From: Siphonodentalium dalli | Lineage: Eukaryota; Mollusca; Scaphopoda; Gadilida; Siphonodentaliidae | Length of the DNA stretch: 64,000 nt | Reading direction: 5' to 3' | Assembly (NCBI GenBank): GCA_032622095.1 | Contig: CP136066.1 | Coordinates: 42,049,835 to 42,113,834, forward strand | Shown here: piece by piece, positions 2,217 to 51,900 of the stretch | Layout: every line of letters begins with the position of its first letter | How positions within the stretch are numbered: the first letter of the stretch is position 1 | Translations under genes and position numbers: made by a program | The notes under the pieces: generated by a model | What the model was told of the DNA's origin: nothing | Seen by the model: the letters and a program-made list of their open reading frames with translations, nothing else | The model's database searches: none

Positions 2217-2616
2217 TTAACCCTTTACCCAACAGAAGGGCCCTGTGCCAATGCATTCTCTTATATATGCGAGTCGACCATAGGTCGCCTCGCATATATA
2301 AGAGAATGCATTGGCTTAACACATTAAAAATTATAAAATTGTTAAAGAATGTAAGAAAAAATGGTAAAAAGTGTTAAAAAAAGATTTTTTTTAGGCCAAT
2401 GCATTCTCTTATATATGCGAGGCGACCTATGGTCGACTCGCATATATAAGAGAATGCATTGGCACAGGGCATAACTGTAACCATCACAATGTGGTCAATG
2501 AGCCGGTTCCAATGATATCCATATTTGTATGGTTTTATTGAGACAGACCCAAGATAATTTAGGCTTTTGCAGCTTTATTTGGACGTTTTTGGCCGGTTTG
2601 TTGGGTAAAGGGTTAA
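2217..2616. mobile_element. TTAA-type (piggyBac-like) MITE family A, copy 1
   Basis: The element is bounded by TTAA on both sides with terminal inverted repeats ccctttacccaaca. It is 400 bp including TTAA and contains two 69-bp palindromes (2247-2315 and 2395-2463), with opposite loop orientation, separated by an AT-rich spacer. TTAA duplications and CCC-starting ends are hallmarks of piggyBac-type transposition. No transposase is present, so it is non-autonomous. Confidence 0.85.
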
Positions 2617-2757
2617 TAAGTTTAATATGTGTAATATAGCTGAACTTACGGCGAGAGTTCTACCTCCAGGTATTGATCCTTGTCATTCAGGAAGAAAGCT
2701 TCGACAACTGTGAACAAAACAAGTTAGCTGATGAAAATTATGTTACATCAAACAAGA

Positions 2758-2973
2758 TTAACCCTTTCTATACTAAATCATCATTGATGAGTAAATATCC
2801 CATATATAGGAAATGTTCAGATAAAAAGTTTAAACCCTTTCTATACTAAAGCATCATTGATGAGTAAATATCCCATATATAGGAAATGTTCAGATAAAAA
2901 GTTTAACCCTTTCTATGCTAAAGCATCATTGATGAGTAGATATCCCATAGGACATGTTCAGATAATACGTTTA
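2758..2973. repeat. 72-73-bp direct repeat, three copies
   Basis: Three head-to-tail units begin with accctttctat at 2761, 2834 and 2906. Each contains 'catcattgatgagta' and ends in 'gttcagataa'. They are about 90% alike by eye. Related single motifs occur near 29235 and 53065. Confidence 0.85.
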
Positions 2974-3119
2974 AAACACGACCACAGGTCACGTGATGCT
3001 GGTTCACCAAATAGACCCCGGGGATGTTCTGATGTCTGAAGGAAAGAGCGAATTATATTAATAAAGCTATATTTTTTATTACTTTTTCCCCTATCTGTGA
3101 TATGAACAATATTGTTTAC

Positions 3120-3137
3120 CCCCCCCCCCCCCCCCTC
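3120..3137. repeat. Poly-C/G homopolymer tract
   Basis: An uninterrupted run of about 17 C residues on the + strand. Similar C runs occur near 30055 and 32130, and G runs near 33440 and 33770. These are slippage-prone positions where assembly length is uncertain. Confidence 0.9.
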
Positions 3138-3249
3138 CCATTGCCCCCTGCCAACAATAAAATTATTTGAGTCTGTAATGACTCGAAAACAGTCTAGGTA
3201 TGTGTGCATTGTAATTTCAAAGGAATCTCGCTTGATTTAGTCTTCTCGT

Positions 3250-18900: not shown

Positions 18901-21900
18901 TAATCTCATTTAAAGCTGTGATGCGTAAAAGTATAGTTGTGACAGTACAGAATATTGAAAATCAGTTGCGTGCACTCACATTCTTGGAGTTCGAAAGAAT
19001 TGAAAGGCAATATTATCACATCAAGGACATTCAATCTTGAGTTTAATTCATATAATTTAACTGCATCATCATTCTGCATTTCAGATATATATACATTCTT
19101 CGCAAAATGTTGCAATTATCTTTTGATTTTTAATGTTTGTCTCACTTGTCTGCCACTTGCCCCTCATGGCACATTCATAACTGACAATTAATTTCATCAT
19201 ATTTCAGCAGAACATAACCTTAAGTAAGACAAAGACACAATATTACCTACATGTAACTAAATGAATCCTGGTGTGTTCTATATCATGGGTTTGACTTTGG
19301 AGCATTTCTCGAAATATGAATTTCTCAAGTATTAAAAGTTTTTAAAAACTGAAATTGTTTCAAAGTCAAATTTTCTAACTTAGACCAATTCTAAGTTAGG
19401 AAACTCAATCAAATGGTTATGTTTATGTTCTAAATTACTAGAATTTGCAAAATATACCAAAAAATCTCAAAAACGAAAAAGCATGTTATGTTGCTTCATA
19501 CATGAACAGAACAAAACTCAACAACAGATAAACAGTTACTAGTATTCCGTTATAACAGTAGTGAATAAAGTATTATTGTAGAAAATTGTAAATGAGAAAA
19601 CACAGTACCAGAGCTCTCATTCAACTTATAGTGAAGAACGGAAGACAACAACAACAATTATAGACTGATTGACATACATTTTAGTATGATTTAAACAGTT
19701 ATCGATTACGGCAATACCACGGACAAAGCGAATTTTGAATTGTCTTTTATTAGTTGTATCTGTAGATATTGCTGTGCAGGAACCTTTCAGGTATATAGAC
19801 TCACTGGTCCAGGTGCTACCGCGGCCGAGTGACTTTATAATCCTGTGGTGACTCCAGTAGCATTATTTAACATGCACACACTGAGGCGAGTACACCTTAG
19901 CCATTATTCTGACAAACTTGTTATTTGATTTCATTGGTTAAATCATTAAGCTGTAAATTCGCGAAAAAAATAATGCGCCCTTTTTTATCACAATTGTTCT
20001 GACAAGTTGAAGCAAGACGTCCGATTTTTGTTGATTTTGATTTGAAAGTCCTCAATATAAGAGGCAATCTTTTTCAAGCCAATAACAGCTCCCGGTTGAC
20101 CTACATCATGCCATGAATCTCTACTAACTATGGCTAACACCCGTAGAGTGGATCATTTTCCACCAGTACAAAACCTGAGAATTTTTTAAGTCGAAAAAAT
20201 AGCATGGGGAATATATTTCTTAGTTATTACTGGTTCCTTAATATGTACTTCACTATAGGTGAAGATCCAAACTCGAAAATCTGGGTAATTAATTTAATGT
20301 TTATTGCGATATCGGCTCACAAAAGTCACAGAAAAACTTGCAATTTCAAACTGGGACCACCTCCTAATGTGAATTAGATTATTGAGGAACAAGTAACTCG
20401 AAATTGGACGATTTAAGTGACTTTGTGAGCGATTTAGTTTTATGGAATTTCTCCTGGGTAATTAATTCAATGTTTATTGCGATATCGGCTCACTAAAGTC
20501 CAAGAAAAACATGCAATTTCAAACTGGGACCACCCCCTAATGTGAAGTAGATTATTGAGGAACAAGTAGTAACAAAGATACATATTCCCTGCCTTGTTTG
20601 TTCAATGTTATAAAGTTCCCTGTCAAAACTGGTCAGAACATCAAAAAGTTTCAAGGTTTTGTACTGTGCAATATGATCTCTATGGGTGTTAGAATGATCA
20701 ACCGTTGACTGGAATATAGTCATGTGAGAATTGAATTGTAAATTGAAAATGGGTCACTCTTAAGGAATACTGTTGAAGACCGGCGGATTAGAAATAATGC
20801 TGGACGAACGTGCCGTTCATCGCCTGTCCTCTTTTACATGTAGGGGGACCTGGTATTGGTGATGTCTTTTCCTCACTGTCTGTAGGGACCAGATCAAAGA
20901 CATCTTAGTGAAAATATAACATCGAAAATGACTGATAATATGAGAAGAGGGCATCCTATATAGTATGATAATTTTGACATCGGATTCATGTTTCTCATAA
21001 TTAGCACCTATTGAAGTATACAATAGTGGTAAAATGTCATATTTGAAAACTCTTGCACGGTGGCCGGTGGGGAATCACATGGTTTCGAGGTTGGTATCAC
21101 AAATTGAAAATGGCCGAGGTGAGTGCAAACATACAAAAACATAATATACATGTACATGTATGAGAAACTATCACAAAGTGACAAAACAGCAATTTGACTG
21201 TTTTTAAAACAAGTTGAAATACTCAGTAGTTTTCTATAACATTCTGACCAAAGTCAGATTCATGGAATACACCTGTCCATACATCACGATACATCTAGGT
21301 GAATCTTTCGTCTGACAACATTGTTCAGATTAGTGCAAACAACTGAATTTGAACACAAATGTGGTGTCAGCTTGTTTGAAAAATAGTATGCCATACATGA
21401 ATGCTCGTAGCTGCCAAACTACTATGTAATATATCATTATCCTAGTTTATTACCCTTTTCCTAATGCGTGAATGTGTGATGCTCTTCTACTTGAAAGGCT
21501 GCAATTGAAAAACAGGTCGCACCAAAATTTTATGTAGGTCTCTTGATAACTGATTCTCACCTTAATTACATGTATTGCTCAATCAAGTCCCAAAATGAGA
21601 CATTTAAAATTATCAGTTCAATGAGTTGTCCATCTGTGACCTGCCATATCAAATCCAATCGGAAGTCGGGATGTTTTACCCTGTGCCAATGCATTCTCTT
21701 ATATATGCGAGTCGACCATAGGTCGCCTCGCATATATAAGAGAATGCATTGGCCTTACAATATTTTACAATTTTAATAATTTTTTCTTGTATTCTTTAAC
21801 AATTTTATAATTTCACCCATACAGAGCCCCAGACAAACATGAGCAGACGACACTCTTCTATTTGCTTCTATATATGTATGGGGCTCCCTGCAGGGTAATG

Positions 21901-24900
21901 GATGTTTTTTATTTTATGTCCTAAAAATTGTCAGAAACATTTATTTAAAAAAAATGATAAAAAATTGTTAGGCCAATGCATTCTGTTATATATGCGAGGC
22001 GACCTATGGTCGACTCGCATATATAAGAGAATGCATTGGCACAGGGTAAAAAAATCCCGACTTCCGACTGGATTTGATATGGCGGGTCACATATGTAGTT
22101 GTTAGTATCAGTTGTAGTCATTATAAGTTTTACCTACACTTCTGCTAACCTACATGTATGGGTTACCTAAAGCACAAACCAGGTGTAACAAAAATCAGTT
22201 ACGGTACACATAATTTTGAAATCTGCAGGCCTGGATTTAATACATGTACATATATATGCAAGCTTTGCTCTCTGGTCCACACCCAGGTAATATTGCATGT
22301 GGAAGCTAGAAGAAACTTAGGATATAGTATTATACAGTAATGCCCTAAGTAATCGACCCCTTAACCACAGCAGAATTATGGGTAACTTTTCAGGATTTAG
22401 TTGGAAATATGGCAACAAGCCATATTTCCGACTAAATCCTGAAAAGTTACCCATAATTCTGCTGTGGTTAAGGGGTTGATTACTTACATGTTGAGCATTA
22501 CTGTAAACAAGAATGGTAGAGATCTTTGTTTGAATTAAATTTCAATATTAAAATTAATTTCTACTGCAATCACATGGAATGTGTTCAGTATGTGAAGTTT
22601 TAGGAGCAACGTGATTGTCAATTTGCATGATTTCAGAAACCTACTAGTACATTGAAATATGGAAGATAAAATTCTCAACCACATGTCAGACGGTTGGCGG
22701 TTGTCGCAATACGACAGGGGAACAATGTGTCCATAACATAACTATCACAAGTACATGTATATCATACTCTGGAAACTACTTACATATGTAGCTCAAATTT
22801 CATGCATAAGAAATTTTAATGAAATTTGGTATGTGAGTTTACTAGCCCAAAATACGGGTCAAGTTCAAATTTGGGTTAAGCTCGGCAATTTTCACTTGGG
22901 TTATGGCATATTTTGCCATGCCATAGTGGTGCTCTTGTTATGAAAAGAAATAATAAAGTATTTTAGAGCACTTCTTTGGAATTTAAGCAATACAAAACTG
23001 TTAGTTATTTATTTATTAACCCTTTACCCAACAGAACGGCCCTGTGCCAATGCATTCTCTTATATATGTGAGTCGACCATAGGTCGTCTCGCATATATAA
23101 GAGAATGCATTGGCTTAACACATTAAAAATTATAAAATTGTTAAAGAATGTAAGAAAAAATGGTAAAAAGTGTTAAAAAAAGATTTTTTTTAGGCCAATG
23201 CATTCTCTTATATATACGAGGCGACCTATGGTCGACTCGCATATATAAGAGAATGCATTGGCACAGGGCATAACTGTAACCATCACAATGTGGTCAAGGA
23301 GCCGGTTCCAATGATATCCATATTTGTATGGTTCTATTGAGACAGACCGAAGATATTTTAGGCTGTTGAAGCTTTATTTGGCCGTTTTGTTGGGTAAAGG
23401 GTTAAACATACATAGAATGAAAAATAAATTCAAATTCATACCATTTTTTCCGTGAAACTTTGGCCAGGCAAGCAAGATACAAAAAATTTATAATATCCGA
23501 GTACAAACATTGGACTGTTCCCCTATCATATAATAATCGGCAACCGTGTCAGACCAGAACAGCTGCCAATTGGAAGTACACATTCTCAATGTGATGTGTC
23601 AATTGACACTAATCAGACTTTCAAATAATCGTGGATTGTCCCCCTTGGCCACAATGACATATTGAATTGTACAGATTATTCTACTCATTCATTGCTTAAT
23701 ATTTATTTCAGGAACTTGGATCCGCTCACAGAAACTGTATCCTTAAACGGACATGGCTCAATCGAGCTTCAATATTTTGTCTATTTGGAAGGACGTATAA
23801 GATAGGAAATATTGCTATACCAGCTTCATACTCTCTGAAAAATACTTGTCATGGTCTCAGCAGTTTTACAGATGTTTTCAACTTTTCTCATTGAAGACAA
23901 ACAAATGCTCTTTGTGTCTACCATATCAGGAATAGACTAACCCTGAACGCTGAATGCAAATTGTTGTTTGTGATTGGGAACCAAACACCGTGTTTAAGGT
24001 TGTACTACGTGGCTTTAATACATACCGGTACCGGACTTAAAATTCGTACGAGAATCAGAATCGATTCTCACAAATGATTCTCGCGTACATACATGTATCT
24101 CTGCTTTGTTATATGAAGACATCATATCATAGCTATTAGGCCAGGGTGTTTTTTTAAATTGGCCAACAAAATCTTTCAAAGCTATGCATGTACAATAAAT
24201 ATTGCAATTCTACATTCCTGTCGCATTCACATCAACTCATTTGACTGAAGATACAGGGAGAGGGTAAACTTTTTTTAAGATTTAAAAGTAAGATATTACT
24301 GTTGAGAAATTGACTCAGTGCGTTGAATTTTCAAAACTTTCCCAGGGGATGCCCTTCAAACTATCTCTAACATGGAATGAGCGATGCACCTTACCCCACT
24401 CCCAACCAACATAATGTGGCATAATCATGATCTGATTTTGATTCTCATACCCTCAAACTGGTGAATTCAGCTTTGATTCTCATACCCTCAAACTGGTGAA
24501 TTCAGCTTTGATTCTCATACCCTCAAACTGGTGAATTCAGCTTTGATTCACATACCCTCAAACTGGTGAATTCAGCTTTGATTCACATACCCTCAAACTG
24601 GTGAATTCAGCTTTGATTCTCATACCCTCAAACTGGTGAATTCAGCTTTGATTCTCATACCCTCAAACTGGTGAATTCAGCTTTGATTCTCATACCCTCA
24701 AACTGGTGAATTCAGCTTTGATTCTCACACCCTCAAACTGGTGAATTCAGCTTTGATTCTCATACCCCCAAACTGGTGAATTCAGCTTTGATTCTCATAC
24801 CCTCAAACTGGTGAATTCAGCTTTGATTCTCATACCCTCAAACTGGTGAATTCAGCTTTGATTCTCATACCCTCAAACTGGTGAATTCAGCTTTGATTAT

Positions 24901-27900: not shown

Positions 27901-30900
27901 AAACAGCATCCACCCAACTGATATCCCAAGCTGTTACAGCATCAACCTAACTGATATCCCAAGCTGTTACAGCATCAACCTAACTGATATCCCAAGCTGT
28001 TATAGCATCAACCCAACTGATATCCCAAGCTGAACCCAACTGATATCCCAAGCTGTTACAGCATCAACCTAACTGATATCCCAAGCTGTTACAGCATCAA
28101 CCCAACTGATATCCCAAGCTGTTACAGCATCAACCCAACTGATATCCCAAGCTGAACCCAACTGATATCCCAAGCTGTTACAGCATCAACCCAACTGATA
28201 TCCCAAGCTGAACCCAACTGATATCCCAAGCTGTTACAGCATCAACCCAACTGATATCCCAAGCTGAACCCAACTGATATCCCAAGCTGTTACAGCATCA
28301 ACCCAACTGATATCCCAAGCTGTTACAGCATCAACCCAACTGATATCCCAAGCTGAACCCAACTGATATCCCAAGCTGAACCCAACTGATATCCCAAGCT
28401 GAACCCAACTGATATCCCAAGCTGAACCCAACTGACATCCCAAGCTGAACCCAACTGATATCCCAAGCTGTTGTGGGCAGAGAAGACTTGGTCTACACTA
28501 AAAGCAATGGAACTCTGCATGCTTTTCACAATATTTTTCAAACATTATGTTTAACCCTTTACCCAACAAACCGGCCAAAACCGGCCAAATAAAGATTCAA
28601 CAGCCTAAAATATCTTCGGTCTGTCTCAATAGAACCATACACATATGGATATCATTGGAACCGGCTCCTTGACCACACTGTGATAGTTACAGTTATGCCC
28701 TGTGCCAATGCATTCTCTTATATATGCGAGTCGACCATAGGTCGCCTCGCATATATAAGAGAATGCATTGGCCTAAAACAAATCTTTTTTTAACACTTTT
28801 TACCATTTTTTCTTACATTCTTTAACAATTTTATAATTTTTAATGTGTTAAGCCAATGCATTCTCTTATATATGGGAGGCGACCTATGGTCGACTCGCAT
28901 ATATAAGAGAATGCATTGGCACAGGGCCCTTCTGTTGGGTAAAGGGTTAATTAAAAGTATAAAAATAAATTGAGATATTCAAATAGTACAGTTTAAAATA
29001 TACATCAACTTTTTTCCCCTCCCAAATATTTGTAAACCAGGAAATGATATTGTGAGTGGCCTACATGTATTTTTTATTTTTTTCAGTCATGGGGAAAGCT
29101 GAGGGCACATCGGAGCTGTGGCATGGGCATGTGACGGCTCTTACTGTAGCCCCAGAGTTCCGCAGACTCGGCCTAGCCGGCACATTGATGAAAAATCTGG
29201 AAGAGATCTCAGAGAGGTGCTTATCTCGGTCACAGTTTAACCCCTTCTTTACTAAATGGATTCTCCCATTCAGTTATAAAAGTACTAGTATATACACAGA
29301 ACGACACGATGTGTAAATGGGTTTGTCGATATGGCACGAGTGCTGTCGTGGAAGGTTAGAACGAGAGGCGCTTGTGCCTCGAGTTCTATCCTTCCGCGAC
29401 AGCACGAGTGCCGTATCGACAAACCCATTTACACATCGTGTCGTTCTGTGTTTATTACACGCTTCGCGTCCTAGAATCCGTGCATTAAAAATACAGGATT
29501 AGAAGGTTTGTTTAGGCTCATACAGGGCGTGTTTGTCATCTGTGATGATTCTTTTATTTAAATAATTCCAGTTTCATGGTTGAGGCGAACATCATGTACG
29601 TCATTTTACGTCAACGAGATATGTATGGAACGTACGTTCCATACGGATTTGTAAATATGGAACAGCAATAACACTGTACTTCTAGGAACAAGCGTGTAAT
29701 AAAAGTTAGAATGGTCTGTTATTCATCTGGAGTGATGGATTCTCCCATTCAGTTATACTTATGTACATGTACCTATGAAGTTATGAACAACAATGCAAAA
29801 TTAAACAACTTAAGTATCACCGTAACATATTCCTGTACCAAATTAAGCAGTATTCACACCCGATATTTCTTTGACCACCTAAAAATAGTGTCAATTTCCA
29901 CATTATTGCTGATAACATATACCTCACGATCTTGAAAAATATACAGGTATTGCAAGATGATCAAGCAGGTCACAGCATGAAGACATTAAGATAATCATAT
30001 TGACTACTCAGTTAAAGCATAAAAAATTACTACAGTCTCCATCTCACACCCTGACCCCCCCCCCCCCCCACCTAACCCCATGCCCCCAACCCTTCTTGCC
30101 CATGTATATACGGAACTACACACATTGTGAGTGAATACCCACATGCACAATGCATCCTCAATTATACGTAAACATTATACTTTATCATTATAATCGCATA
30201 ACGGCACTGCCAGAAGTTAAACTTTATGTGGGGTCCTGTTCTTGTAAATCAAATATATTGTTTGAATATCAATTAAATTTCATTCAATCTTGATAAAAGC
30301 AAGCCTTGATATAGTGAGCCTGTCATTTGCAGAATGAGGTCCCCAGAGGGTGAATTTGGTGATGCTAGCCCACTATGCGGGGTAGCATCACTAAATTCAC
30401 CCTCTGGGGACCTCATTCTGCAAATGATAGGCTCACTATTTCAAGGCTTGGATAAAAGTATACATTGGAATGGTTTGTTATTCATCTGGAGGGATGTTCA
30501 GGAAATAGAAGAAGACTTATTATTATCCATACCTTAACTAACATTCTTTCTGATTGGGTCAAAGCCGCCACGTGATAATCTGGGAAAAAGTCATATTGGA
30601 CTCCCGAATGTCATATTGGACTCCCAAATGTTCAATATGACTTTTTTATCGGGACTCTGTGATGTCATGAATTAACTCTATCATGATATGAATCGGTGGA
30701 ATTGTGATGCGCGCGCAACACTGGTGGATATAGCAGACGTTTAACTTCCGCATTGAGTTGCGGTGAAAAAGTCATATTGGACTCGACACTGCGTGTCTCG
30801 TCCAATATGACTTTTCTCCACAACCTGGACTCGTACAAGAAAGACACATACTGTACACAACATTGTATAATAGGAACTACTTGTACTTATCAATGAGTAT

Positions 30901-33900: not shown

Positions 33901-36900
33901 GGTCAAATCACCAGTCCATATATGTTCCTACTTCAGGTTAAACTGTTGGACAGATCTAGAATTGGCCACAAATTTTAACTTTATGGGGGTGTCAGGTTGG
34001 TAATTTTCAAATGGGGTCACCTTGTCAAATAGGGGCCAAGCGAAGGACAGTTTTCCTCTTAATATGCTTCCTTCACAAGGACCATCAGGTCTATTTTACT
34101 GATATTTAGAATGAAGGGTTCTTTGGTGTATGGGATTCAAATTTATTCAGATGGGGTCACCAGGTTAAATGGGGTGGGACCAGGGACATAACTGTATGTC
34201 TCTATAGTAATACTTAATATGTCTTCTCAAGAGAGGTTGGACTATTTAGCTTACATATAGCATGGAGGATCCTTTAGTGTCTCAGATTCAGATTTGTTAA
34301 CATGAGGTCAACCTGTTAAGAAATGACGGGGCTATGGGGACTTAACACTTTTGCGTCTAATAAAATCATTAAAATACAAAATTCATTAAAACATCTACCT
34401 TGGAACTACCTGACTGATTAATCTGACATACATGTATGGTGTTTTGGGTCCATGGATAATTGGGCTTCAAACATGTCTAAATGGTTTTATAAAAAGGCGC
34501 TTGTGAGATTGGAAATTTCCAACAATTGAGAAAGTTTGAGATGTCGGTTGTGAAATTCCAACCTATTAGACTTGGGAGTCTGGAGCCCGGTCGGGAGGGG
34601 ATTTGTTGAGCTGGAGGAGGGGGGGTGGGGTGATCAGTAGTGTACAGTTGGTAATTTCAAGGTAGATATTCACCGATCTACATACAGTAATGCTCTAAGT
34701 AAGCGACTTCTTAACCACAGCAGAATTATGGGTAACTTTTCAGGATTTAGTCGGAAATATGGCTTGTTGCCATTCATCGGAAAACTTTCATCGGAAAGCT
34801 CTCACCGAGAGCTTTCCGATGAATGGCAACAAGCCATATTTCCGACTAAATCCTGAAAAGTTACCCATAATTCTGCTGTGGTTAAGAAGTCGCTTACTTA
34901 GAGCATTACTGTACATGAAGCCTCTCTAGCCACATATCCTGTTTAGATCTACTTCTTTTAAAATGATTATGAAAAGTTCTGACTGTTGTGGTCTCCAGAG
35001 TCCCAGTCTTATCAGTCTTTGCAGTCTGGTGAGCGACCCCACAGTCTTTGACTGTCTTGTTTGGTATGGAGCCACCATGTCAAATAGGGACAGAGCCCAG
35101 GACCAAACTATTTTCTTCAAATTTACTTACTTTAAGTCTTAACACGTTGATTGCCAACTACGAGTTACATGTATCTCATACTTTTTGCTTGTAATTGAAT
35201 GGGAGCCGGCACTCAACGTGTTAATATGTTTTTTTTCACAAAACCATCAGGTCTATTTTGCTGACATTTACATGGAGTAGGAAGATGACCTGGATTAAAA
35301 TTTATTCAGTTAGGGTCACATGGTGAAATAGGGCGAGACCAGGGACATACCGCTAACTCTTTCCCTCTATAGTAACTCTTAAAACTTCTTCTAACCCTTT
35401 ACCCAACAGAAGGGCCCTGTGCCAATGCATTCTCTTATATATGCGAGTCGACCATAGGTCGCCTCGCATATATAAGAGAATGCATTGGCTTAACACATTA
35501 AAAATTATAAAATTGTTAAAGATTGTAAGAAAAAATGGTAAAAAGTGTTAAAAAATGATTTTTTTTAGGCCAATGCATTCTCTTATATATGCGAGGCGAC
35601 CTATGGTCGACTCGCATATATAAGAGAATGCATTGGCACAGGGTATAACTATAACCATCACAATGTGGTCAATGAGCCGGTTCCAATGATATCCATATTT
35701 GTATGGTTTTATTGAGACAGACCGAAGATATTTTAGGCTGTTGAAGCTTTATTTGGCCGGTTTTGGCCGGTTTGTTGGGTAAAGGGCTAAAGAACCATTG
35801 GACTATTTAGCATATTATATCAGTTCCTTCTCAGTGCTCGCATCATGAATGGCTTTGGGCTGTGCGTGACTCCGAGGGACCCCTCCACCGGTGGGGGATG
35901 TATTCCATCAGCAGGCAGTAGGTTATAGTTCTGTAGTAGAGCTGACAAGAACAGGTAGAATTCCATTTTAGCAAGAGACTCTCCTGGACACAGACGTCTT
36001 CCTGCAATGAAACGTCAACAATTTCTTTTAGCACACCCTGCAGGTCACCTCTCTCATCTCTCATGGTGACCTCTAGATGGGAGCCATCATTTTTTTTTTT
36101 TTACGAAATTCATTCAAATGCATGGTCGCCAGCAACTTTGTTGGATTTAAAATTTGAGTCCATCAGCACATTCTGCAGCACACATTGGAGAAATATTTTT
36201 AAAATTTACAGGCATTTTTAGGATCACTTCTAGATGGGAGCTATCAAATTTGAATGATTTTCGATGAAAACATTGGATTTTATTCTTCGCATTGGATTTT
36301 ATTCTTCGCATCTGTTTGTATGACTAAATAATTTCAGCTTGTTGACCTCTGGTATTGCTTAAACATTTAAACTTTCCGCAGGCATGTTTAGGATCATCTC
36401 GATGAAAAACATGGCCACCATCAGCCATCTTCCATTTTACACTTTGTATGACTAAATCCTTTGGCACACCCAACAGATAACATCCCTTCTCCGATCGTCA
36501 CCAGACTGGATATGGATCGTTGGGGTGACCACTAGATTGGAGCTATCAAATTGTTCCAAAAGCGGCATCTTGGATTTTACTCTTAGCATGACTAAATCAT
36601 TCGGCCCACTCTACAGGTGACATCTCTCATGCTGAATCCCAAACTTTATATACATGTATCTCTTCATGTTAACATCTAGAATTACTTGGACATTTCAACT
36701 TTACGCATTCCTAATCGCTATTGACAAACATGAAATTATCCCCTCTCCAATGAACTACAGTGTCCTTGACACTTCCATATACCATTGATTTTGACTTATG
36801 TTCGTTTATGTTTGTTTGTGCTTTTACGTTTTTAGTTAGGACCGTTGGACATAGGCCAATAGAATAGATTGAATAGCATATAGATCAAAAAGAGAGAGAA

Positions 36901-39900
36901 GCATCTGATTTCAGGGATAAGAACTTTCTTGTCCCTTGATTACAGTCTACCTACCAATTGAGAATGCAACAAATTCCTCTGGGATAATTTTCTTCCCCTT
37001 CTCATCAATGAATCTGGATGGCAGATACTTTGTGGGCTCTGGAAAATGAGTTTCGTCAAACAGTACCGAATGTATATTGTGTAAAAGAAGAGCATCTTGT
37101 GGTATGGTATAGCCATGGAATTGGGTCTCTTTAGACACGCAATGTGGAAAACCAATCGGTACAATACCAGAAATCCGTAATGTTTCCAAAACAGTTGCAT
37201 TCATGAGGGGCAAGGCAGATCTATCAGCCATTGATGGTTTGCGGTCGCTTTGGATGGCTGAATCAAGTTCTTCATGAAGTTGTCGTTGAAGAGTGGGATC
37301 TTGTAGAATGTATAAAAGGCAGAAACTCAAAGCTGAGGCTGTTGTGTTAGTTCCTGCTTCAAACAGTTCTTGCACAAACCTCGCAAGTTCGTCCTCTGAA
37401 ATGTATGAATGAAGAGACAGTTTTTTCTAAATAAATCATGGGGAGAAGTGCAAAGGAGAAAATACATGTAGGTAGCAGTATCCTAGATTGGATATTTGGT
37501 TTACCTGAAAAATTAAATCGAAGTGGTAAGTCGAGGAATTCGAATTCGAGTGAATGAAAATGGGCGCGAAAAGCTTTTATACCAAGGGTTAGTATTATGG
37601 GCTATCCAAGAGAATCATGGGAAGTTCAAAGGTCACTATAGTTTTGTCAAACAGAAACATACCGGTATAGAGTAATATTTATATAGTCTGTTGAGTATTA
37701 TTTCCGGTTTAGTAATTACAAATTTTGTAAACAAAATAGCCCCATTGTCACATATCAATGAAAAACAATTTTGTTTGTAGTGTCTAGGTGGAGGGGCCCT
37801 GGGGTAACAGTTGATAAGATGCATTGGACATTAATAGCCTTATTTAGGTCAACATAAGCCATTAATGTATAATATGTGAATGTTTCCATTATTCAAAGAA
37901 GCGTCTTTGCATGACTAAATCCTTTGGTACACCCTACAGTCCACATCCCTCAACCGATCATCACCAAACTTCATATGGCTCTTTGGGATGACCTCCTGAT
38001 GGGAGTCATAATTTTTTTTCCGAATTTCTTTAAAAAAACATGCTCTTTGCATGACTAGATCCTTTGCCAAATCCTACAGTCAACATCCCTCATCTGATCG
38101 TCACCAAACTTCATTTTATCTTCGGGGTTACCACTAGATGGGAGCTATACATTTTTTTTTAATTTCATTGGAAAATATGTCCGCCAGTGGCATTCTTGGA
38201 ATTTACTTTATATATATGTTTTCATGTTGACATCTAGTATTTAATACTTAGACATTTCAACTTTCCGCATTTCTTATCACTCCATTGACTGTAAGACATG
38301 AAATTATCCCACCTCCAAGTTAAGTTACAGTGTCATTGACACTTTCGTTAACCCTTTACCCAACAGAAGGGCCCTGTGCCAATGCATTCTCTTATATATG
38401 CGAGTCGACCTATCATTGGCTTAACACATTTAAATTATAAAATTGTTAAAGAATGTAAGAAAAATTAACTATAACCATCACAATGTGGTCAATGAGCCGG
38501 TTCCAATGATATCCATATTTGTATGGTTTTATTGAGACAGACCCAAGATATTTTAGGCTGTTGAAGCTTTATTTGGCTGGTTTTGGCCAGTTTGTTGGGT
38601 AAAGGGTTAAGGATATCCCCATAGGTGAAGTGGTTGGGTCATGTATGGATAAGATCGTCACAGTCTGGGCTAGACGAGGTTGGCACAGGTTGAAATCCCG
38701 ACTTGGGCAAATCATATCAGGACCTATTTTCGAGCTTAATAAAAAAAATGAGAAACTGTCCATGCTCACTGAAGCGTGCAAGCACATTTGAAGCAATGCA
38801 CATGCACTCATACTATAAAGTCTTTGTTTCATAAATCTGTTAGATATAAGAACCATTTATTTAGCAATAGCAAACAGCGATTCAATGATGGTTTCGTTAA
38901 CACAAGCTCAATGATCTAACTATAAACATCTAAATTTATAAAAAATTTATATTGAAAGTTATTCATAACTTATTCACATGTATATATTTTATTAATTCGC
39001 CGAGTACCGTGTATCGGGATTACGCGAACACTCAGCACTGTGAAAATTGACTGAGTACCTATGGGATGGACCGGTACTGGTTCCATTGAGAAGCCTGAAC
39101 CAAATCAATTAACCAATCTAGGTGGGGAATTCATGAGATATAGCAGTAGCCAGGATGTCATGGATTTCTTTAACCCTTTACCCAACAAACCGGCCAAAAC
39201 CGGCCAAATAAAGCTTCAACAGCCTAAAATATCTTCGGTCTGTCTCAATAGAACCATACAAATATGGATATCATTGGAACCGGCTCCTTGACCACATTGT
39301 GATAGTTATAGTTATGCCCTGTGCCAATGCATTCTCTTATATATGCGAGTCGACCATAGGTCGCCTCGCATATATAAGAGAATGCATTGGCCTAAAAAAA
39401 ATCTTTTTTTAACACTTTTTACCATTTTTTCTTACATTCTTTAACAATTTTTTAATTTTTAATGTGTTAAGCCAATGCATTCTCTTATATATGCGAGGCG
39501 ACCTATGGTCGACTCGCATACATAAGAGGATGCATTGGCACAGGGCCCTTCTGTTGGGTAAAGGGTTAAACCAAAATATCTTACTTTCTCTCAACCTGTT
39601 GCTCTCAAAATGATCTTCTCGCCTTAATTGTTTGTATGTGTACTACTAGTATTTAATAAATAGAGCATGGTTTGGAGTTGGCTATGCAGATATAGTGCCC
39701 AGTGGGGTGGGTATAGTTCACAACGCGTAGCACTATATATATGAATTCAAGTTCAATAATCTGAAATGCACAGTAATTAGGTTTTGTTTTGAATGCATGA
39801 ACACCCGAAACTGTATTACAAGGTGAATTCAACTGAATGTTGCCACTTTGCAAGTTGATGTCTTTCCTGTAAAAACACTTTTCACAGTAATGTTTTATTT

Positions 39901-42900
39901 TCATTTGGACACGCCTTAGTAAACTGGTGGACACATATATGTATATCTGTTTTCGAGATCGTTGCCTCTGTTCATATGGCTTTTTGCATGCCAGTTTAGT
40001 ATCGTAGTGTGCTTTGTTTAGCAAGATACTATACAAGTATAGTAGTGTGCTAAATTTAGCACAACACTACACATTATAGAACATAGCTCTCGACCAATCA
40101 GAAGGCACCATTTCTGGGAGAGGTGAAATATTATGGAATCACTGAACTAAATGGTTTCCCATAGGCGACAGTGTTAACGTTTCGGCCAAATTCACTGAAT
40201 TGAAGCCTGCAGGCAACTCCAGAAAAATCATAGGTCATGTGTTTACTTTTTAAAATAAATCCCCAAGTGTACGACAGGGCTATACCACAGCCAAATTTGA
40301 TCTGGAAAAACCCAGAACTACAGCAGCCAGTTAAATAAATTTCCCACTCACAAAAATTCATTCCCCCATTAATTCACCAGTTTAAATTATTAGATATGAT
40401 GTACAAATCAAATAAACACGATGTCATCATTTAATAACGTGCCACATGTATCAGGTGAAGGTCATTCTTCAGTTACCTTCACCTTTAGCATTCAAAGTTG
40501 CACTCGCTCCCCGACTCTGGAACACATTTAGCTCCCTGATTCCTTATGGTATATCTGTCGTGTACAAAATATTTAATCTAAAATTACCACTGGAATGTAT
40601 ATCACTTGTCTTTTCCTGATTGTTTTTGGAAATGTCCTTTCTCCATTTCTCTATGTATGCATCAATGAAGTCGTTGACCACACCAGGCTGATGGTCTTGT
40701 AAATGCCTTTTCACCTCACTGATAATAAATGAACTCTGCATGTCCATATTTTTCTTTATTTTCTTTATTTTGAAGACATCTCCTGGCATGAATCTCATAA
40801 TTGGATGGAGGAAGAGAATAAGTTCAGATCCCGAGAGACTCTCGTCCATTCTTGTTAGATATTCTTGGAATGTTTTGTCATCATATTCATATCGTCTTCC
40901 GAAAGTAATTAAACAAATGACATTACTGATAGCATTCCTTATCAGGGGCGTGACATTGAATGGTCTCCCCTCGTATCGATCCACTTCCATGAGAAAGCTT
41001 TCTATCTCTGAATGTATCTTGGTTTGCAGAAGATTTTTTCCCATTCCAAAATCTCGCAGAGTGTGGATACAGAATCTTCTGTTATTTTTCCATAATTGCC
41101 CGTTTGCCCACATCAGTGCTGAAAGATAGGATGTGATATAATTGTTTTGATATTTGTTTCCGGGTATCAACTGGCAACTTTGTAACTTTCTGTGCCAGAT
41201 TTTAACAAATCACCATTATGAGATTCATTCTTTAATAGTTGCATTTGATGTCAGCTTGGATAAAATAAAGCTTCAGTAGTAAAATCTTGACTTAGTCAGG
41301 GATGGTGGGGGAGGGGGTTGCAAACATTTCCAGGATACAACATTTGGGTGGATCTGAGCACCGATCGCAGATTTTTCCAATGCCATGTAAATATTTTACC
41401 AAATACATGTTTAATGACTACTAAAATGATTTTAAATGTTCATTCTTATAAACTGGACCAAAATTAATAGAGCATAAATTCAAAAGAAGGGGGCTCCTAG
41501 TTTAAATATTTACCCAATATTTGTTCTTTTATAACACAATATCATGTGGTGGGTCCCACTTCTTAAAAGGAAAAAATAGCACTGAAAATAAAAGTAATTC
41601 CATGAGATTCCATCAGTTCTCACAGGTTTACATTGTTGCTTTTGACATTGAATTATCCGTGTGGTGCAAACATCAGCTCATTTAATACTTCTGGTGCTTT
41701 AAATGGTATGACTATTGAAAGATATACAGATTTCTTTTATTATTGTATGATGTTCATCCTTGGGCAAATGGGACCTTTGATTTATGGCACTTACCGATAT
41801 AATGAAAAACTGAGTAATGGAACATAACATGCTAATTATTATGCATTTGACTCTTGGGGGTATATAGTGGAAACCTTTGTCTGTCCATGCTTCCATCCCT
41901 CCATCCTTCTGTCCTTCCATCCATCCTTCTGTCCTTCCATTTGTCTGTCCGTAAAAATATGTCACAACACAGCTCAAGTATCGATAGTCCAACTTGGTTG
42001 TCCTTTGGTTTGCCGGTAGACCAGCATTGTGGAAATGATCTCCACATATTGCGTGGTCGATCCGTCCGTCAACAATTTCCTTTGGCTCCCCCTACAGGCC
42101 GCGTCCCTCATCCTATCATCACCAAACTTCATATGGATCTTGAGGGTGATCTCTAGATGGGAGCCATCAATTTTTTCCCACGAAATAAACAAAAAAACAT
42201 GGCCACCAGCAGCCATTTTTGATTTGAAATTTGAATCCATCGACACACTCTGCAGCCTGCATTTATTGGAGAAATGTTTTGAAAATTTACAGGCATGTTT
42301 ATGATCATCTCTAGATGAGAGCTATCAAATTTTAGCGATTTTATTAGTCTTTGTATGACTAAATTCTGTGGCACATCCTCATCTGATCATCACCAAACTT
42401 TATATGGATCTTCATGGTGACTTTCAGATGGGGGCCCATGATTTTTTCCCCTTAATTTGTAGAAAAACATGGCTTCTAGCAGCCATCATTGATTTTACTC
42501 TTTGCATGACTAAATGCTTCAGCACACACTACAGGCCACATCCCTCATCCGATCATCACCAAATTTCATATGGATCTTTTGGGTGACCTCTAGATTGGAA
42601 CCGTCGATTATTTCTGAAATTCTTTATAAAACATGGCTGTTTGAAACCATCCGCATGCATTGCAGCCTACATTTATTGGTGAAATGTTTGAAATGAACAT
42701 ACAGGTAATTTCACCTACACAATACAAGACCTTTACTATAACTTTTTGGCTTCCTTCATTATTATTCTATTCATTCATTGCTCAGCAAAAATAAACTCCT
42801 TCCCAAGTTGAGTTACAATGTCATTGACACTTTCATTAAAAATCAAACTTTTGGGGGTGTGTCAACAATTTCCCTTGGAAAAAAAACTTGCTTTGGAAAT

Positions 42901-45900
42901 GTGGGTGTCAGAGATTATAGATAGGAAAAAAAATGCGTTCACGGGGTGATGTGTCCCGAAAATTAAAAAAAAATAAACATTCCACCTTGTATCCAGCTGT
43001 TGTATTCTGGAATGTTTTCCAAACCCCCCTGACTTTGATAACAATTAAATTATATGTATTGTATAGAACCTGCATACGAACAAATTTAATAGTGGATGTG
43101 AGGGTTTCGGTAGAATCAGGCCCAAAACATTTGGGGCAGGGGTAAGTTGGTTGTAGGATGTAGGTTTCAAGTGTAATTTCCAACATTGGACAGAGGTGCA
43201 TTTGTTACCTCCTGGCTACCTCCCTGCTTTCTGCTGTGCATTATAAATAGCTCATTTTCAGGTACTGGTATTTAAGGGTATTTCAATGAATTTCTGTTGT
43301 TACTTAGTATATAATTTTTAACAATTCTATAACACCCTTGCTTTAAGCAATCTATAGGGTGAAGACAAACCTTTGGCTGGACCAATCATGTAATCAGCCA
43401 TCAGATTTTGAGGGCGATTAGCAACCAGGTCACCATATTCAACAAACATCTCCTTCAATGTTTTGTATCCATTGAAAACAATAAATGTTGTTCCAAGGAT
43501 TTTGATTGTGAAAACATCACCATAATCCTTTCGGAATTCTTGGAAAACAGTTCGGATGTCACGTCCCATTATCTGAAATATATTTCCCAGCCAAGGCAGC
43601 CTCGGAGGTCCTGGTGGCAAATTCAAACATCTCTTGTTAAAGTACCAGTAACCAAACAATACTAGAATGAGAAATGTTACAAATATCTGAAGATCTTTAT
43701 CACTTAGGAAGTCCATGATGCAATCACTTTAACACTGAAGTGTAAATTGCATGGACATATGTACATAGGCCATGTAGTAAGATAATTATTTTATATCTAT
43801 TCAGATCTATTGGTATACTTTTATTATCTCATTTGTTGATTTGGAGCAGCAAACAAATCTAATCCTAATATATTCAGGTCATGGTCAAATAGGGTGGTGG
43901 TGTATTGTTGGTGTATTATTAATAGGGTGGTGGTGTATTGTTGGTGTATTATTAATAGGGTGGTGGTGTATTGTTGGTGTATTATTAATAGGGTGGTGGT
44001 GTATTGTTGGTGTATTATTAATAGGGTGGTGGTGTATTGTTGGTGTATTATTAATAGGGTGGTGGTGTATTGTTGGTGTATTATTAATAGGGTGGTGGTG
44101 TATTGTTGGTGTATTATTAATAGGGTGGTGGTGTATTGTTGGTGTATTATTAATAGGGTGGTGGTGTATTGTTGGTGTATTATTAATAGGGTGGTGGTGT
44201 ATTGTTGGTGTATTATTAATAGGGTGGTGGTGTATTGTTGGTGTATTATTAATAGGGTGGTGGTGTATTGTTGGTGTATTATTAATAGGGTGGTGGTGTA
44301 TTGTTGGTGTATTATTAATAGGGTGGTGGTGTATTGTTGGTGTATTATTAATAGGGTGGTGGTGTATTGTTGGTGTATTATTAATAGGGTGGTGGTGTAT
44401 TGTTGGTGTATTATTAATAGGGTGGTGGTGTATTGTTGGTGTATTATTAATAGGGTGGTGGTGTATTGTTGGTGTATTATTAATAGGGTGTTGGTGTATT
44501 ATTAATAGGGTGGTGGTGTATTGTTGGTGTATTATTAATAGGGTGGTGGTGTATTGTTGGTGTATTATTAATAGGGTGGTGGTGTATTGTTGGTGTATTA
44601 TTAATAGGGTGTTGGTGTATTGTTGGTGTATTATTAATAGGGTGGTGGTGTATTATTGGTGTATTATTAATAGGGTGTTGGTGTATTGTTGGTGTATTAT
44701 TAATAGGGTGGTGGTGTATTGTTGGTGTATTATTAATAGGGTGTTGGTGTATTGTTGGTGTATTATTAATAGGGTGGTGGTGTATTGTTGGTGTATTATT
44801 AATAGGGTGGTGGTGTATTGTTGGTGTATTATTAATAGGGTGTTGGTGTATTGTTGGTGTATTATTAATAGGGTTGTGGTGTATTGTTGGTGTATTATTA
44901 ATAGGGTGTTGGTGTATTGTTGGTGTATTATTAATAGGGTGGTGGTGTATTGTTGGTGTATTATTAATAGGGTGGTGGTGTATTGTTGGTGTATTATTAA
45001 TAGGGTGTTGGTGTATTATTAATAGGGTGGTGGTGTATTGTTGGTGTATTATTAATAGGGTGGTGGTGTATTGTTGGTGTATTATCAATAGGGTGGTGGT
45101 GTATTGTTGGTGTATTATTAATAGGGTGTTGGTGTATTGTTGGTGTATTATTAATAGGGTGGTGGTGTATTATTGGTGTATTATTAATAGGGTGTTGGTG
45201 TATTGTTGGTGTATTATTAATAGGGTGGTGGTGTATTGTTGGTGTATTATTAATAGGGTGTTGGTGTATTGTTGGTGTATTATTAATAGGGTGGTGGTGT
45301 ATTGTTGGTGTATTATTAATAGGGTGGTGGTGTATTGTTGGTGTATTATTAATAGGGTGTTGGTGTATTGTTGGTGTATTATTAATAGGGTTGTGGTGTA
45401 TTGTTGGTGTATTATTAATAGGGTGTTGGTGTATTATTAATAGGGTGGTGGTGTATTGTTGGTGTATTATTAATAGGGTGGTGGTGTATTGTTGGTGTAT
45501 TATTAATAGGGTGGTGGTGTATTGTTGGTGTATTATTAATAGGGTGGTGGTGTATTGTTGGTGTATTATTAATAGGGTGGTGGTGTATTATTGGTGTATT
45601 ATTAATAGGGTGTTGGTGTATTGTTGGTGTATTATTAATAGGGTGGTGGTGTATTGTTGGTGTATTATTAATAGGGTGGTGGTGTATTGTTGGTGTATTA
45701 TTAATAGGGTGTTGGTGTATTGTTGGTGTATTATTAATAGGGTGGTGGTGTATTGTTGGTGTATTATTAATAGGGTGGTGGTGTATTGTTGGTGTATTAT
45801 TAATAGGGTGGTGGTGTATTGTTGGTGTATTATTAATTGGTGTATTGTTGGTGTATTATTAATTTGATGACAAAACCTTTGTTCAGGCCAGGCTTAGAAA

Positions 45901-48900
45901 TTTGACAAAGTAGCTGAAAGCACTAACATAAACATTAACCCTTTGAGTGCCAGGGGCCGATCTTATCGGCCCTAAACCTACAAAATACGTCTGTTAATGA
46001 ATATAAGAATAAATTAATAAAATTGTAAAAAAAATTGTAAAAAAAAATAAAAAATAAAAAATTGTTAGGCCAATGCATTCTCTTATATATGCGAGGCGAC
46101 CTATGGTCGACTCGCATATATAAGAGAATGCATTGGCACAGGGTATATGGGTTGATACAAAAATCGACCTGGCACTCAAAGGGTTAAACAACAGCATACA
46201 GAAAATAGATTTACAATTTGAGAATGCGCCAAAATATAAGAAAATATAGAGTTATCACTCTTTGTCTACCATAGATTCATGTATAGAGCTGCTATGGATT
46301 GGACGACACAAACCTGGCAGATGCCATAGCTACATGTTTTAGGCATTCAACATCGAGAGGTGGTATTTCCCACACATTTAACCCTTTGATGACTGTTGTA
46401 TCCATTGATTAGTAGCTCACTATGTGAATGATCAGATAATAAGTTAAAAAATTACCTAAGGCTGTTTTTTAACTTATTTATATCTGAAATTTCCTCTAAA
46501 TGACCAGCTACATGTAGGTATCATATGCTTTCGCCACTTTCATTATTAAAACACTGCTCGAAATGAATAATAGACCATTCCAATGTATCTCTTTATTCAT
46601 GAGTGGGGAAAATCCATTCAGTAACAAAAGGGTTAACCCTTTACCCAACAGAACGGCCAAAACCGGCCAAATAAAGCTTCAACAGCCTAAAATATCTTCG
46701 GTCTGTCTCAATAGAACCATACAAATATGGATATCATTGGAACCGGCTCCTTGACCACATTGTGATAGTTACAGTTATGCCCTGTGCCAATGCATTCTCT
46801 TATATATATGCGAGTCGACCATAGGTCGCCTCGCATATATAAGAGAATGCATTGGCCTAACAAAAATCTTTTTTTAACACTTTTTACCATTTTTTCTTAC
46901 ATTCTTTAACAATTTTATAATTTTTAATGTGTTAAGCCAATGCATTCTCTTATATATGCGAGGCGACCTATGGTCGACTCGCATATTTAAGAGAATGCAT
47001 TGGCACAGGGCCCTTCTGTTGGGTAAAGGGTTAAGGGATAGTGACAGTCTCTTTAGAAATCATGCCTTTTACCAAGCTCTTTCCAACACGATCTTCTATT
47101 ACTAGTACAAAAATTTGCATATAAAGTGTACATTCTCTAATTATTGAAACAGGACGCTACCACAAACCCCGTAAACTGGATGAAGATGACCAAATTTATT
47201 TCCACTGTCCGAACAGGAGAAAGGAAGATGAGAAACACATTTCTCCTGTATATCAAAATTTAAGAAACAAACATAAAGAATTATTCTTAAGCAAAACTGA
47301 AGATACAAATATTTGTTCCCTTCTCAATCACACATCATTAAATGTGTCTTTAATAGGCAAGCAAGAACAGTTTTATCTGAGGCCCTGAAGGTTCGAAAAG
47401 AAAAGCTACATGGCAATACACAAATTGATGGCAGAAAATTCATTTATGTTTTTGAATAATTATTCTTCATTGTTTTATTGATGTTACTAGTCCAAGTCTT
47501 CTCGTACTAAAACTAGCTAAGATTTTGGGATGGAGATGCTAGTATTTAGTCCGAGTTCCAGGCCCATGCATTCCTATGACACGACTTAAGCGTTAGTGAC
47601 CCGCTCAAATAAAACCACAATTATATGAAATAAAATATCACAATTGCGACAATAAACGGATATTTTCCGCAGAAGACTAGCTATTTTATCTGAAACCCAC
47701 ATCGTTTGTGAATTGAAAGCCGTAATTTAATGTGAAAAGAGACATTTGCCGCAGTGTTTACATATTTTTAAAAGTATGCGAACTCAGTTGACCTTGCGAA
47801 CTGCGTTCGGCATTTTCCGGTGAAAATATTCCGTAGATTTTCAATCAACCACGCACGATGAATTCTCCATTGTAATCGTAATTATACGTGACAATAAATA
47901 AATGAATACATAGATTAAATAAATATTGAAGATATAAATGTAATACATTTAATAAATTACGGGAATTACAACCATCTCACAGTTTAAAACAGTGTAAACA
48001 CAATGAGCATTAGAATATCATGGGGGCCGCCATTTTGTTTGTATCGAAATTCGTCTCGGCCAAAACAAACACCGGACAATGCCGAAGTTCTTCGGAACCT
48101 GAGTTCGGCTTTCAGTTAAGTAAACAAACAGAAAAAACAACGATGTTTGTGGCAATCAACCGGAATATTCTATGTGTAATTTAACATTAAAGTTAGATTA
48201 TTATACACCATTATGACCATAATATGTCACTCTTTCCGATGTATATAGCATCATGTATTGCTTTGTTAGGTAAATCGAGTAAAATACACCACAGATTTGC
48301 TACAGATCCTGGGCGTAACTCGTGTCATAGGAATGCATGGGCCTGGAACTCGGACTAAATACTAGCATCTCCATCCCAAAATCTTAGCTAGTTTTAGTAC
48401 GAGAAGACTTGGACTATGATGTTACATGCTCTTTATTGTTCGATTTGTGGGATGACGCAAATATGTTATGTCATGTGCATATATCCAATAAATGGTTTGA
48501 TAAAAAAAATAATAACTAAGGTTTAACCTAGACAATATTTGTACAGAAATGGTCTTAACTATTTTTTGAAGCATTGTGCAATTGCATTGAACATTAAAAC
48601 AGTTTGCTATTAAAGTGATCTGTTTGCAACTTTCCGCAATTGCATATTTTTTTGCGGTTCCCAAAATTGGCAAATTTTGCGATTGATTGAAGGAGTAGGA
48701 TTAAGGCGTTTCCATGCCAGGAGGTGGAAAGTTTAGATGAACCTACACAGAAAACTACTTAATTGTTAAGCTAGTACACCACATGAAGGAATCTATGCTA
48801 TCTATTAAAAGACCACAGTCTATTTAAAAAGCTGACAATTTTTTTGCAATATTTACAATATAAATCTCATTCATAATCAGTTACTGAATTGATGGGATTT

Positions 48901-51900
48901 CCTCCATTTCATTAACCCTTTACCCAACAGAACGGCCCTGTGCCAATGCATTCTCTTATATATGCAAGTCGACCATAGGTCGCCTCGCATATATAAGAGA
49001 ATGCATTGGCTTAACACATTACAAATTATAAAATTGTTAAAGAATGTAAGAAAAAATGGTAAAAAGTGTTAAAAAAAGATTTTTTTTAGGCCAATGCATT
49101 CTCTTATATATGCGAGGCGACCTATGGTCGACTCGCATATATAAGAGAATGCACTGGCACAGGGCATAACTGTAACTATCACAATGTGGTCAATGAACCG
49201 GTTCCAATGATATCCATATTTGTATGGTTCTATTGAGACAGACCGAAGATATTTTAGGCTGTTGAAGCTTTATTTGGCCGGTTTTGGCCGGTTTGTTGGG
49301 TAAAGGGTTAAAGAGTGGCGATGCATTGGTTTATGGCATAACGGATCACTTCACAGATCAGAGGTCAATGACATGTTGACAAGTTTCCATATATATAGCA
49401 CTCCATATTTGGAAATGGTTTATTACGTCATGTTGGGAATGCCACGCCGTTGTAGAAATCAAATTTAGTGGACACTTCTAGAGACGTACACACGTTAGGA
49501 TTATCGTCGTCTTTTTGAGGGCCTGTGGCCCTGGCACAAAGGTGCCGCAGACCCATAGAGTATTAGGGACCTGTATGCGCTTCGTACACATTTGGACCTA
49601 AATATTCGCATAGGATCATATTCGATTTACTTGATTCTGAAATAAGCCAAGCCCATAGTGGACATATACCCATTATTCTGTTGGATGGTGCAGGCCACAG
49701 TGAAAACACATATATATTAAAAGAGCATACATCTGGTCTGAAAATAGGATCATATTGAACCTAAATATTCAGTTTTGATTCTGAAATACCCCCATAGTGA
49801 GCTTATTTTAATTTGTATGTTTTTAGCTCACCTGAGACGAAGTCTCCGGTGGAGCTATAGTCATCACTCCTCGTCCGTCGTCCGTCCGTGCGGGCGTCTG
49901 TCCGTCCGTGGACACAATTTTGTCCGGAGTTTTTCTCAGTCGTTTTATGATTATTTTCCTCAGTCGTTTTATGATTATTTTCCGTGAAACTTGGCACAGA
50001 CCACCCTGGGAACCTGTGCACCTGCGATTATGACGTCTGTCAGACTTTTTTTGGTGGAGTTGTCCCCCTTTTTCGACTTAGAAATTTTTCGCAACATGTA
50101 TAATTTTGTCCGAGCTTTTATTCCTACATTTTTAGGTAAATATTTTTAAAACTTAGCACAGATATTTAGTACCATGGGAACCTGTGCACCTGCGATTATG
50201 ACGTCTGTCCGACATTTTTTGGTGGAGTTATCTCCCTTTTTCGACTTAGAAATATTTTTGCAAGATGCATAATTTTGTCCGAGCTTTTATTCCTACATTT
50301 TTGGGTCAATTGTTTTTAAACTTGGCACAGATATTTAGTACCATGGGAACCTGTGCACCTGCGTTTATGACGTCTGTCCGACATTTTTTGGTGGAGTTAT
50401 CCCCCTTTTTCGACTTAGAATTTTTTTCGCAACATGCATAAATTTGTCCCAGCTTTTATTTAGTCAATAAATTTAGGATTAGAGTTAGGAGTTAGGGTTA
50501 GGGGGTTTAGGGTTAGGGTTACCTGTTGACATAATTTCAGTGCCAAATATATGGTAATGGCTACTTCATTCAAATAACATTTTGAATACGGGGGGTATTA
50601 CTTAGTCCCATCTGGGACAAGCCCATCTCTAGTTGAATTTATTATGTGAATATTTTACCCTCCAATTAACACCACTCCTTCTGTTCTTTTACTATTTTGT
50701 TGTCCGGATGATAACTTAACTCTTTCAGTGCCAAGTCCGATTTTTGTATCAACCCATATTTCCTTGATCATTTTTCAAATTTATTGATTATAATAATGTC
50801 ATACATTGATGGAAAGAGCTCTTAGAATTTGCTTACTATTTTGACAGAATTTTATGAAACTTGTTATGTGGTCGTCATATAAGAAAGAACCGATGGAGAA
50901 CACAACAAAGATGAGCTATATATATTTTTTACCCTGTGCCAATGCATTCTCTTATATATGCGAGTCGACCATAGGTCGCCTCGCATATATAAGAGAATGC
51001 ATTGGCCTAACAATTTTTTATCATGTTTTTTAAATAAATGTTTCTTACAATTTTTAGGACATAAAATAAAAAACATCTATTAACCTGCAGGGAGCGCCAC
51101 ACATATATAGAAGCATAGAAGAGTGTCGTCTGCTCATGTTTGTCTGGGGCTCTGTATGGGTGAAATTATAAATTTGTTTATAATTTACAAGAACAAATTA
51201 TTAAAATTGTTAGGCCAATGAATTCTCTTATATATGCGAGGCGACCTATGGTCGACTCGCATATATAAGAGAATGCATTGGCACAGGGTAAAAAAATCCT
51301 GACTTACGACTGGATTTGATATGGCGGGTCACATATAGAATAGAAATAAACCGCGCAATTCAAAAGAGTCCGAACTCAAGTAAACAAAATGATTGCAAAC
51401 TGATTGATGCTCTAACTGTACTGAAGAAAATGAAAACTAAAATGGCATATTCTGTTCAGTATAAAAGGAGATGGTCCCATAAATGGCCGAATTTAACCCT
51501 TTAAAAATACCCCTTTAACTAATCAATAAGGCCAAAAAACCCACACAAAAAAATGTTGGTTCTCAGGCCCCGCTGCATTGAATAAAAAGGGCCGCACTAG
51601 GCCTTTTTATTGCAATGCCTGATGTTATGACAAAAAAACTTACGAAAAAATAAATTTAAAAAAAAAAAAAAAAAAGTTTTTTGGGATTTTATCAACATGT
51701 CCATAGCAGATATGTGTTGAATATTAGTGTGCATTGAGCTCTAACATCTAATGTGTTAAAAAGTGACTTGCAGGCTTACAACATGAAGTAGATGACTACA
51801 ATTAAGAAAATGATTAGCTGATCCTCATGCTCTTCTTACAATTAGTCATTGTGAACAACTTACACTAATTGTAAATTTATACAATTGAAAGGCACAGGAC

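Follow-up and report, generated by a model that had tools for sequence, protein, structure and literature searches.

A 69-bp hairpin common to short transposable elements with different ends in a 64-kb stretch of DNA, and its probable passage between them as part of a larger core

The window analysed in this work, i.e. the whole stretch of 64 kb, contains a 69-bp hairpin in 20 intact copies and a broken one (at 38378), and all 21 sit within short transposable elements of three families: A (eight elements, 15 copies), B (two elements, two copies) and C (two elements, four copies). Since elements whose ends differ carry the same hairpin in a fixed orientation, it is concluded that it passed between lineages; its copies in the window are not confined to a single lineage of terminal inverted repeats (TIRs). 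The hairpin probably belongs to a chimeric MITE core which was acquired by different transposon ends through exchange between elements. The sample behind this reading is one 64-kb stretch, with families B and C represented by two elements each.

The start positions given in the original prediction were correct for all 21 copies. The 17-bp arm, with up to two mismatches allowed, gave 41 matches in the window in comparison to 0.01 expected from 100 shuffles, which refutes a chance origin of the palindrome, and the elements differ from each other in flanks and in point mutations, which speaks against an assembly artefact; an explanation by either of the two is hardly conceivable. Nineteen of the 20 intact copies are 69 bp long and the one at 46786 has 71 bp, with a 2-bp insertion. 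The consensus corresponds to the sequence of the copy at 2247; ten intact copies are identical to it and nine carry 1–2 substitutions. The three families have the same majority sequence of the module. The near-perfect palindrome was predicted correctly but not its details: instead of 26 bp followed by a 6–7-bp stem, the computed fold of the 2247 copy comprises 27 perfect base pairs, one T/C mismatch, 5 bp and a 3-nt loop. The folding energy of this copy is −54.3 kcal/mol as RNA (z −14.3) and −35.4 kcal/mol as DNA (z −15.6), in each case stronger than that of all 200 shuffles. The Rfam scan of the window returned no matches at the gathering score. The flanks of the module had been described as constant, and this holds for the outer CCCTGT, present next to 21 of 21 copies and preceded by G in 14 (family A) and by A in seven (the right module of A4 and those of B and C), but not for the inner TAAC: the inner flank reads YTAA in 20 of 21 copies and YTAAC in 14 of 21.

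Family A comprises eight elements of 390–402 bp, except for the deleted A5 (263 bp). Both ends are TTAACCCTTTACCCAACA (inverted) in seven of the eight, with one base different per end in A4. The flanking tetranucleotide is TTAA in seven of the eight, and A4 is flanked on both sides by CTAA as a direct repeat; the tetranucleotide is therefore a target duplication placed outside the inverted repeat. A1 (2217–2616, plus strand), a piggyBac-type MITE with TTAA on both sides, carries the left module at 2247–2315 (plus) and the right one, inverted, at 2395–2463 (minus). In the other plus-strand elements with two modules, A2 (23016–23405), A4 (35391–35790, with the CTAA repeat as its 4-bp target duplication) and A8 (48912–49311), the left modules (plus) are located at 23046–23114, 35421–35489 and 48942–49010, and the right ones (minus) at 23194–23262, 35569–35637 and 49090–49158, respectively. 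In the minus-strand elements A3 (28551–28950), A6 (39170–39569) and A7 (46633–47034) the right modules (plus) occupy 28704–28772, 39323–39391 and 46786–46856 (the 71-bp copy), and the left ones (minus) 28852–28920, 39471–39539 and 46936–47004, respectively. In A5 (38348–38610, plus) the second module is gone and the first one was partly lost with a cut at the loop, leaving a remnant at 38378–38420 (plus). Palindromes are unstable, and the loss in A5 is consistent with such instability. Positions 1–31 (minus) belong to one more A element, A0, of which the left end is retained, the window edge lying one base inside the module. In three elements (A0, A2 and A8) the left end agrees with the right end of A7 up to and including ACGGCC, beyond which it turns into CCCTGT. 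The dinucleotide CC is common to both sequences at this point, and the switch would be compatible with a microhomology junction. A repeat at 46378–46636, CCCTT-ended and TTAA-flanked, which has no module, stands back to back with A7 and has one TTAA in common with it.

The two elements of family B measure 249 and 253 bp; each is bounded by TTAACCCTTTGAGTGCCA at either end and flanked on either side by TTAA. Both piggyBac-type MITEs, B1 (26528–26776, plus, ends CCCTTTGAGTGCCAG) and B2 (45935–46187, minus), contain one module, at 26578–26646 (plus) and 46069–46137 (minus), respectively. A B-like end of 44 bp was also found at 50716–50759 (plus). It resembles B with three mismatches and one insertion, diverges at the core junction and continues without the module. 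Since the divergence coincides with the position of the core in B, this type of end does not have the core as an intrinsic part. No far end matching it was found with up to three mismatches allowed. The distance between the B-like end and the changed side of C2 is approximately 220 bp (50716–50937), which may mean that C2 was inserted into a degenerate B-like element or fused to one.

The elements of family C have 43–44-bp inverted ends starting with GTGACC. C1 (21636–22090, plus, ends GTGACCYGCCATATC) carries two modules, the left at 21685–21753 (plus) and the right at 21972–22040 (minus); there is no TTAA at its ends and no target duplication was identified for the family. C2 (50925–51332, minus) keeps the GTGACC-type end on one side only, the outer end being absent on the low-coordinate side; its modules are placed at 50938–51006 (plus, low-coordinate side) and 51214–51282 (minus, high-coordinate side). 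The arrangement expected beforehand, an inverted pair of modules in A and C and one copy in B, was thus seen in C1, C2, both B elements and seven of the eight A elements, but not in the deleted A5.

A and B are piggyBac-type MITEs with a TTAA-type target and CCCTTT at both ends (8/8 A and 2/2 B elements), short and non-coding. Their sizes are 249–402 bp with both TTAA counted, and the longest stop-free stretch does not exceed 82 codons in any of the ten; none of the 12 A, B and C elements contains a stop-free stretch above this length. In a study on coral MITEs, CC(C/T)T at the start of the TIR is given as a hallmark (PMC2872659). A and B are similar to MITEs of the piggyBac superfamily in the TTAA target, the CCCT start, short inverted ends and the lack of coding capacity, and differ from them by an interior common to families with different ends. 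Assignment of C to the piggyBac-type MITEs was tried and rejected, as the ends are GTGACC, with neither TTAA nor CCYT at C1. The claim that the ends of the three families are unrelated is therefore valid for C, which differs throughout, whereas A and B share TTAA followed by CCCTTT and differ only beyond it.

No transposase was detected in the Pfam scan of 22 of the 27 window ORFs of at least 100 aa; the remaining five overlap one another within a single minisatellite. Two sub-threshold matches among the scanned ORFs (7tm_6 and PH-GRAM) were taken as chance. Among the frames scanned, three matched P450, and a LINE was recognised by endonuclease and reverse-transcriptase matches; the surroundings, as judged by such content, are eukaryotic and animal-like. 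The P450-matching frames lie on the minus strand at 36950–37375, 40547–41170 and 43330–43716 (region 36947–43716) and are perhaps exons of one gene, in which case A5 and A6 would be intronic.

Other repeats were also noted in the window. Another MITE-like family, up to approximately 240 bp, is near-palindromic over the full length, with TACAGTAATGCYCTAA ends in the copies read (572–798, 22323–22505, 25938–26169, 27418–27649, 34672–34917, 61431–61801 and 63542–63768); within one copy (61437–61797) a 140-bp stretch is tandemly duplicated. At 35139–35224 there may be an 86-bp mini-element, TTAA-flanked and with TTAACACGTTGAKTGCC ends. Two minisatellites were found, at 24437–25846 (35-bp units, 40 copies, 99 % matches) and at 43888–45863 (33-bp units, 61 copies, 94 % matches), B2 starting approximately 70 bp beyond the latter. 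The pairs 55637–56785/59283–60570 and 4335–5041/5193–5887 are duplications of approximately 0.7–1.3 kb, 97–99 % identical in the aligned pieces.

The similarity between the families extends beyond the hairpin, since the AT-rich stretch lying inside of it is also common to A, B and C. Some 137–150 bp in the three families, more than the 69 bp, descend from one core, whose layout is CCCTGT, the 69-bp hairpin, YTAA and an AT-rich stretch ending with TTCTTRYATTCTTTAACA. The outer edge of the core is fixed at CCCTGT and the inner one is variable. The core is represented by 2328–2469 in A1 (minus; AT-rich inner flank, module and CCCTGT), 21677–21813 in C1 (plus; TACCCTGT, module and AT-rich inner flank) and 26570–26719 in B1 (plus).

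The homology of the inner flanks was assessed by aligning 14 flank pairs and comparing the scores with 1000 dinucleotide shuffles, with A1 as the sole representative of family A. The flank of the left C1 module matched that of the right A1 module in 44 of 51 aligned columns and that of B1 in 44 of 48, the score being reached by none of the 1000 shuffles in either case. For A1-right and B1 (34 of 42 columns) it was reached by 10 of 1000 shuffles. B2 gave 0/1000 with C1-left and 16/1000 with A1-right, and C2-right gave 0/1000 with B1 and 1/1000 with A1-right. The C1-right flank was weakly similar to A1-right (10/1000), B1 (25/1000) and C1-left (57/1000), and C2-left was related to C1-right, its counterpart on the same side in the same family (0/1000). 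The A1-left flank, read inward from the module, showed no likeness to C1-left (288/1000) or B1 (957/1000), as would be expected if it were the far end of the same stretch; its comparison with A1-right gave 46/1000. The module had been proposed to be a portable unit, and its passage between lineages is borne out by these data, but the unit is not the 69 bp alone, as the homology continues 42–51 columns inward.

The fixed outer edge could have a different origin. The core, CCCTGT-hairpin...hairpin-ACAGGG, could itself be a small transposon with hairpin-bearing inverted-repeat ends and perhaps a TA target, which was inserted into unrelated hosts and copied along with them. The original prediction had likewise considered a tiny element that entered others. 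In agreement with this, all 21 copies have their outer edge at CCCTGT although the sequence beyond it varies (A-left, A-right, B, C1 and the changed side of C2). Outer junctions all placed at CCCTGT are predicted by a defined element end, unlike by random template switching. The B-like end at 50716, which has no core at the junction, also fits, and the core junctions in C1, TTTTA-CCCTGT and ACAGGG-TAAAA, are compatible with a TA duplication, but they lie in surroundings that form an inverted repeat and the TA is therefore ambiguous. No direct repeat surrounds the core in A, where the left side reads ACGG or AGGG and the right one CATAAC or TATAAC, and in B one side only is available for such a comparison. 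Solo copies were not found either: no 11-mer of the 81-bp unit occurs on either strand elsewhere in the 64-kb window, i.e. outside the zones from 30 bases before to 100 bases after each of the 21 starts. Insertion of the core as a transposon in its own right is thus considered rather unlikely.

According to the preferred reading, exchange of the core between elements, A and B would have been moved in trans by piggyBac transposases acting on the CCCTTT ends and TTAA, and the hairpin would have ridden along. At least two transfers of the core to a new set of ends would have taken place, through recombination between elements or through template switching; the repair of an excision gap is one possible occasion for such an exchange. 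In the suggested order of events the fuller form would be a C-like core with two hairpins, from which A could be derived by loss of the middle and B by a cut after TTCTTTAACA. No donor or recombination intermediate was seen in the 64-kb window.

On this reading, which we place first, the hairpin may be a mere passenger. Alternatively, it could be a functional part under selection in active elements, acting for instance as a transposition enhancer, a cruciform in gap repair or a source of small RNA. A 3-nt loop is, however, very tight for a microRNA precursor. In favour of a function, the fold is far stronger than that of the shuffled sequences, and the majority module is identical in the three families while the inner flanks differ between them by 8–19 %, gaps counted; identical modules are also explicable by a recent transfer of the core. 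Fewer differences were found in the modules than in their surroundings in the two families with two elements each. B1 and B2 differ at 0 of 69 positions in the module versus 13 of 180 outside (p 0.022), and C1 and C2 at 2 of 138 versus 18 of 268 (p 0.027). For B and C pooled the numbers were 2/207 and 31/448 (p 0.0008), and with the AT-rich parts omitted 2/207 and 12/243 (p 0.026). In family A, for which seven of the eight elements were used (A5 left out), the difference was not significant: 9/966 in the module versus 34/1824 elsewhere (p 0.07), with subfamily variants held in common counted repeatedly. Pooling of all three families gave 11/1173 versus 65/2272 (p 0.0002), a crude test that mixes differences from the consensus (A) with pairwise ones (B and C). 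Compensatory changes in the stem were absent, as none of the 32 pairs was changed on both sides among 11 distinct rows, which indicates that fixed copies decay freely, without compensation. Moreover, other TTAA-flanked, CCCTT-ended repeats do without the module, namely the neighbour of A7 described above and the one at 53062–53333. A selected function of the hairpin seems improbable. It is more doubtful still that selection maintains the core with its hairpin as a portable cassette which raises the copy number of any transposon ends that acquire it, irrespective of the transposase superfamily; one way would be a stalling of repair synthesis, after which another copy serves to refill the excision gap.

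The closest parallel is provided by the CMITEs of the coral Acropora, TTAA-flanked piggyBac-type MITEs with different TIRs and approximately 75 bp of the interior in common (PMC2872659). According to that paper, the ends usually serve to distinguish MITE families and the interiors usually differ, the CMITE interior is more conserved between families than the ends and all the CMITE families keep the CC(C/T)T motif; its authors suggested a role in transposition and considered the acquisition of a host sequence as a possible origin, which they called unknown (PMC2872659). The elements described here are similar in having an interior that is common to families with different ends and better conserved than the TIRs. 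They differ in that a near-perfect palindrome of 69 bp, which often occurs as a pair, makes up the interior, and in that the core is also present in family C, whose ends are not CCCTTT. The published 60-base consensus of the CMITE interior forms no strong hairpin (z −0.65). It was also tried as a relative of the hairpin and rejected: blastn against the window gave two 11-base matches (E 0.61) outside A, B and C.

In Galileo, copies have been described to exchange segments, chiefly those of the inverted repeats, and this could yield new subfamilies (PMC3573991). The likeness to this Foldback-like element concerns the exchange; Galileo differs in belonging to the P superfamily and in its long, internally repetitive TIRs (PMC3573991). 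Made1, a short MITE, is reported to be the source of the hsa-mir-548 hairpin microRNA genes (PMC1784062); the two cases are alike in combining a short MITE with a hairpin.

Searches of IMG/VR with four patterns and of phage records with A1 gave no match. The one hit in bacterial and archaeal genomes, a hairpin in Omnitrophica, has the two 11-base arm tips that the search pattern demanded, with a different middle and flanks, and was taken as chance. All these collections consist of prokaryotic or viral DNA and have little bearing on animals. Six sequence words of the module and the ends occurred in no full text within the open-access literature searched. Repbase or Dfam may already contain entries for A, B or C.

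The sharing of interiors among MITEs is already known from the coral CMITEs, and what is added here is the strong hairpin and a third family of non-piggyBac type. If the pattern were to hold genome-wide, it could be tested directly whether the success of MITEs is driven by a cassette in the interior and not by the ends alone.
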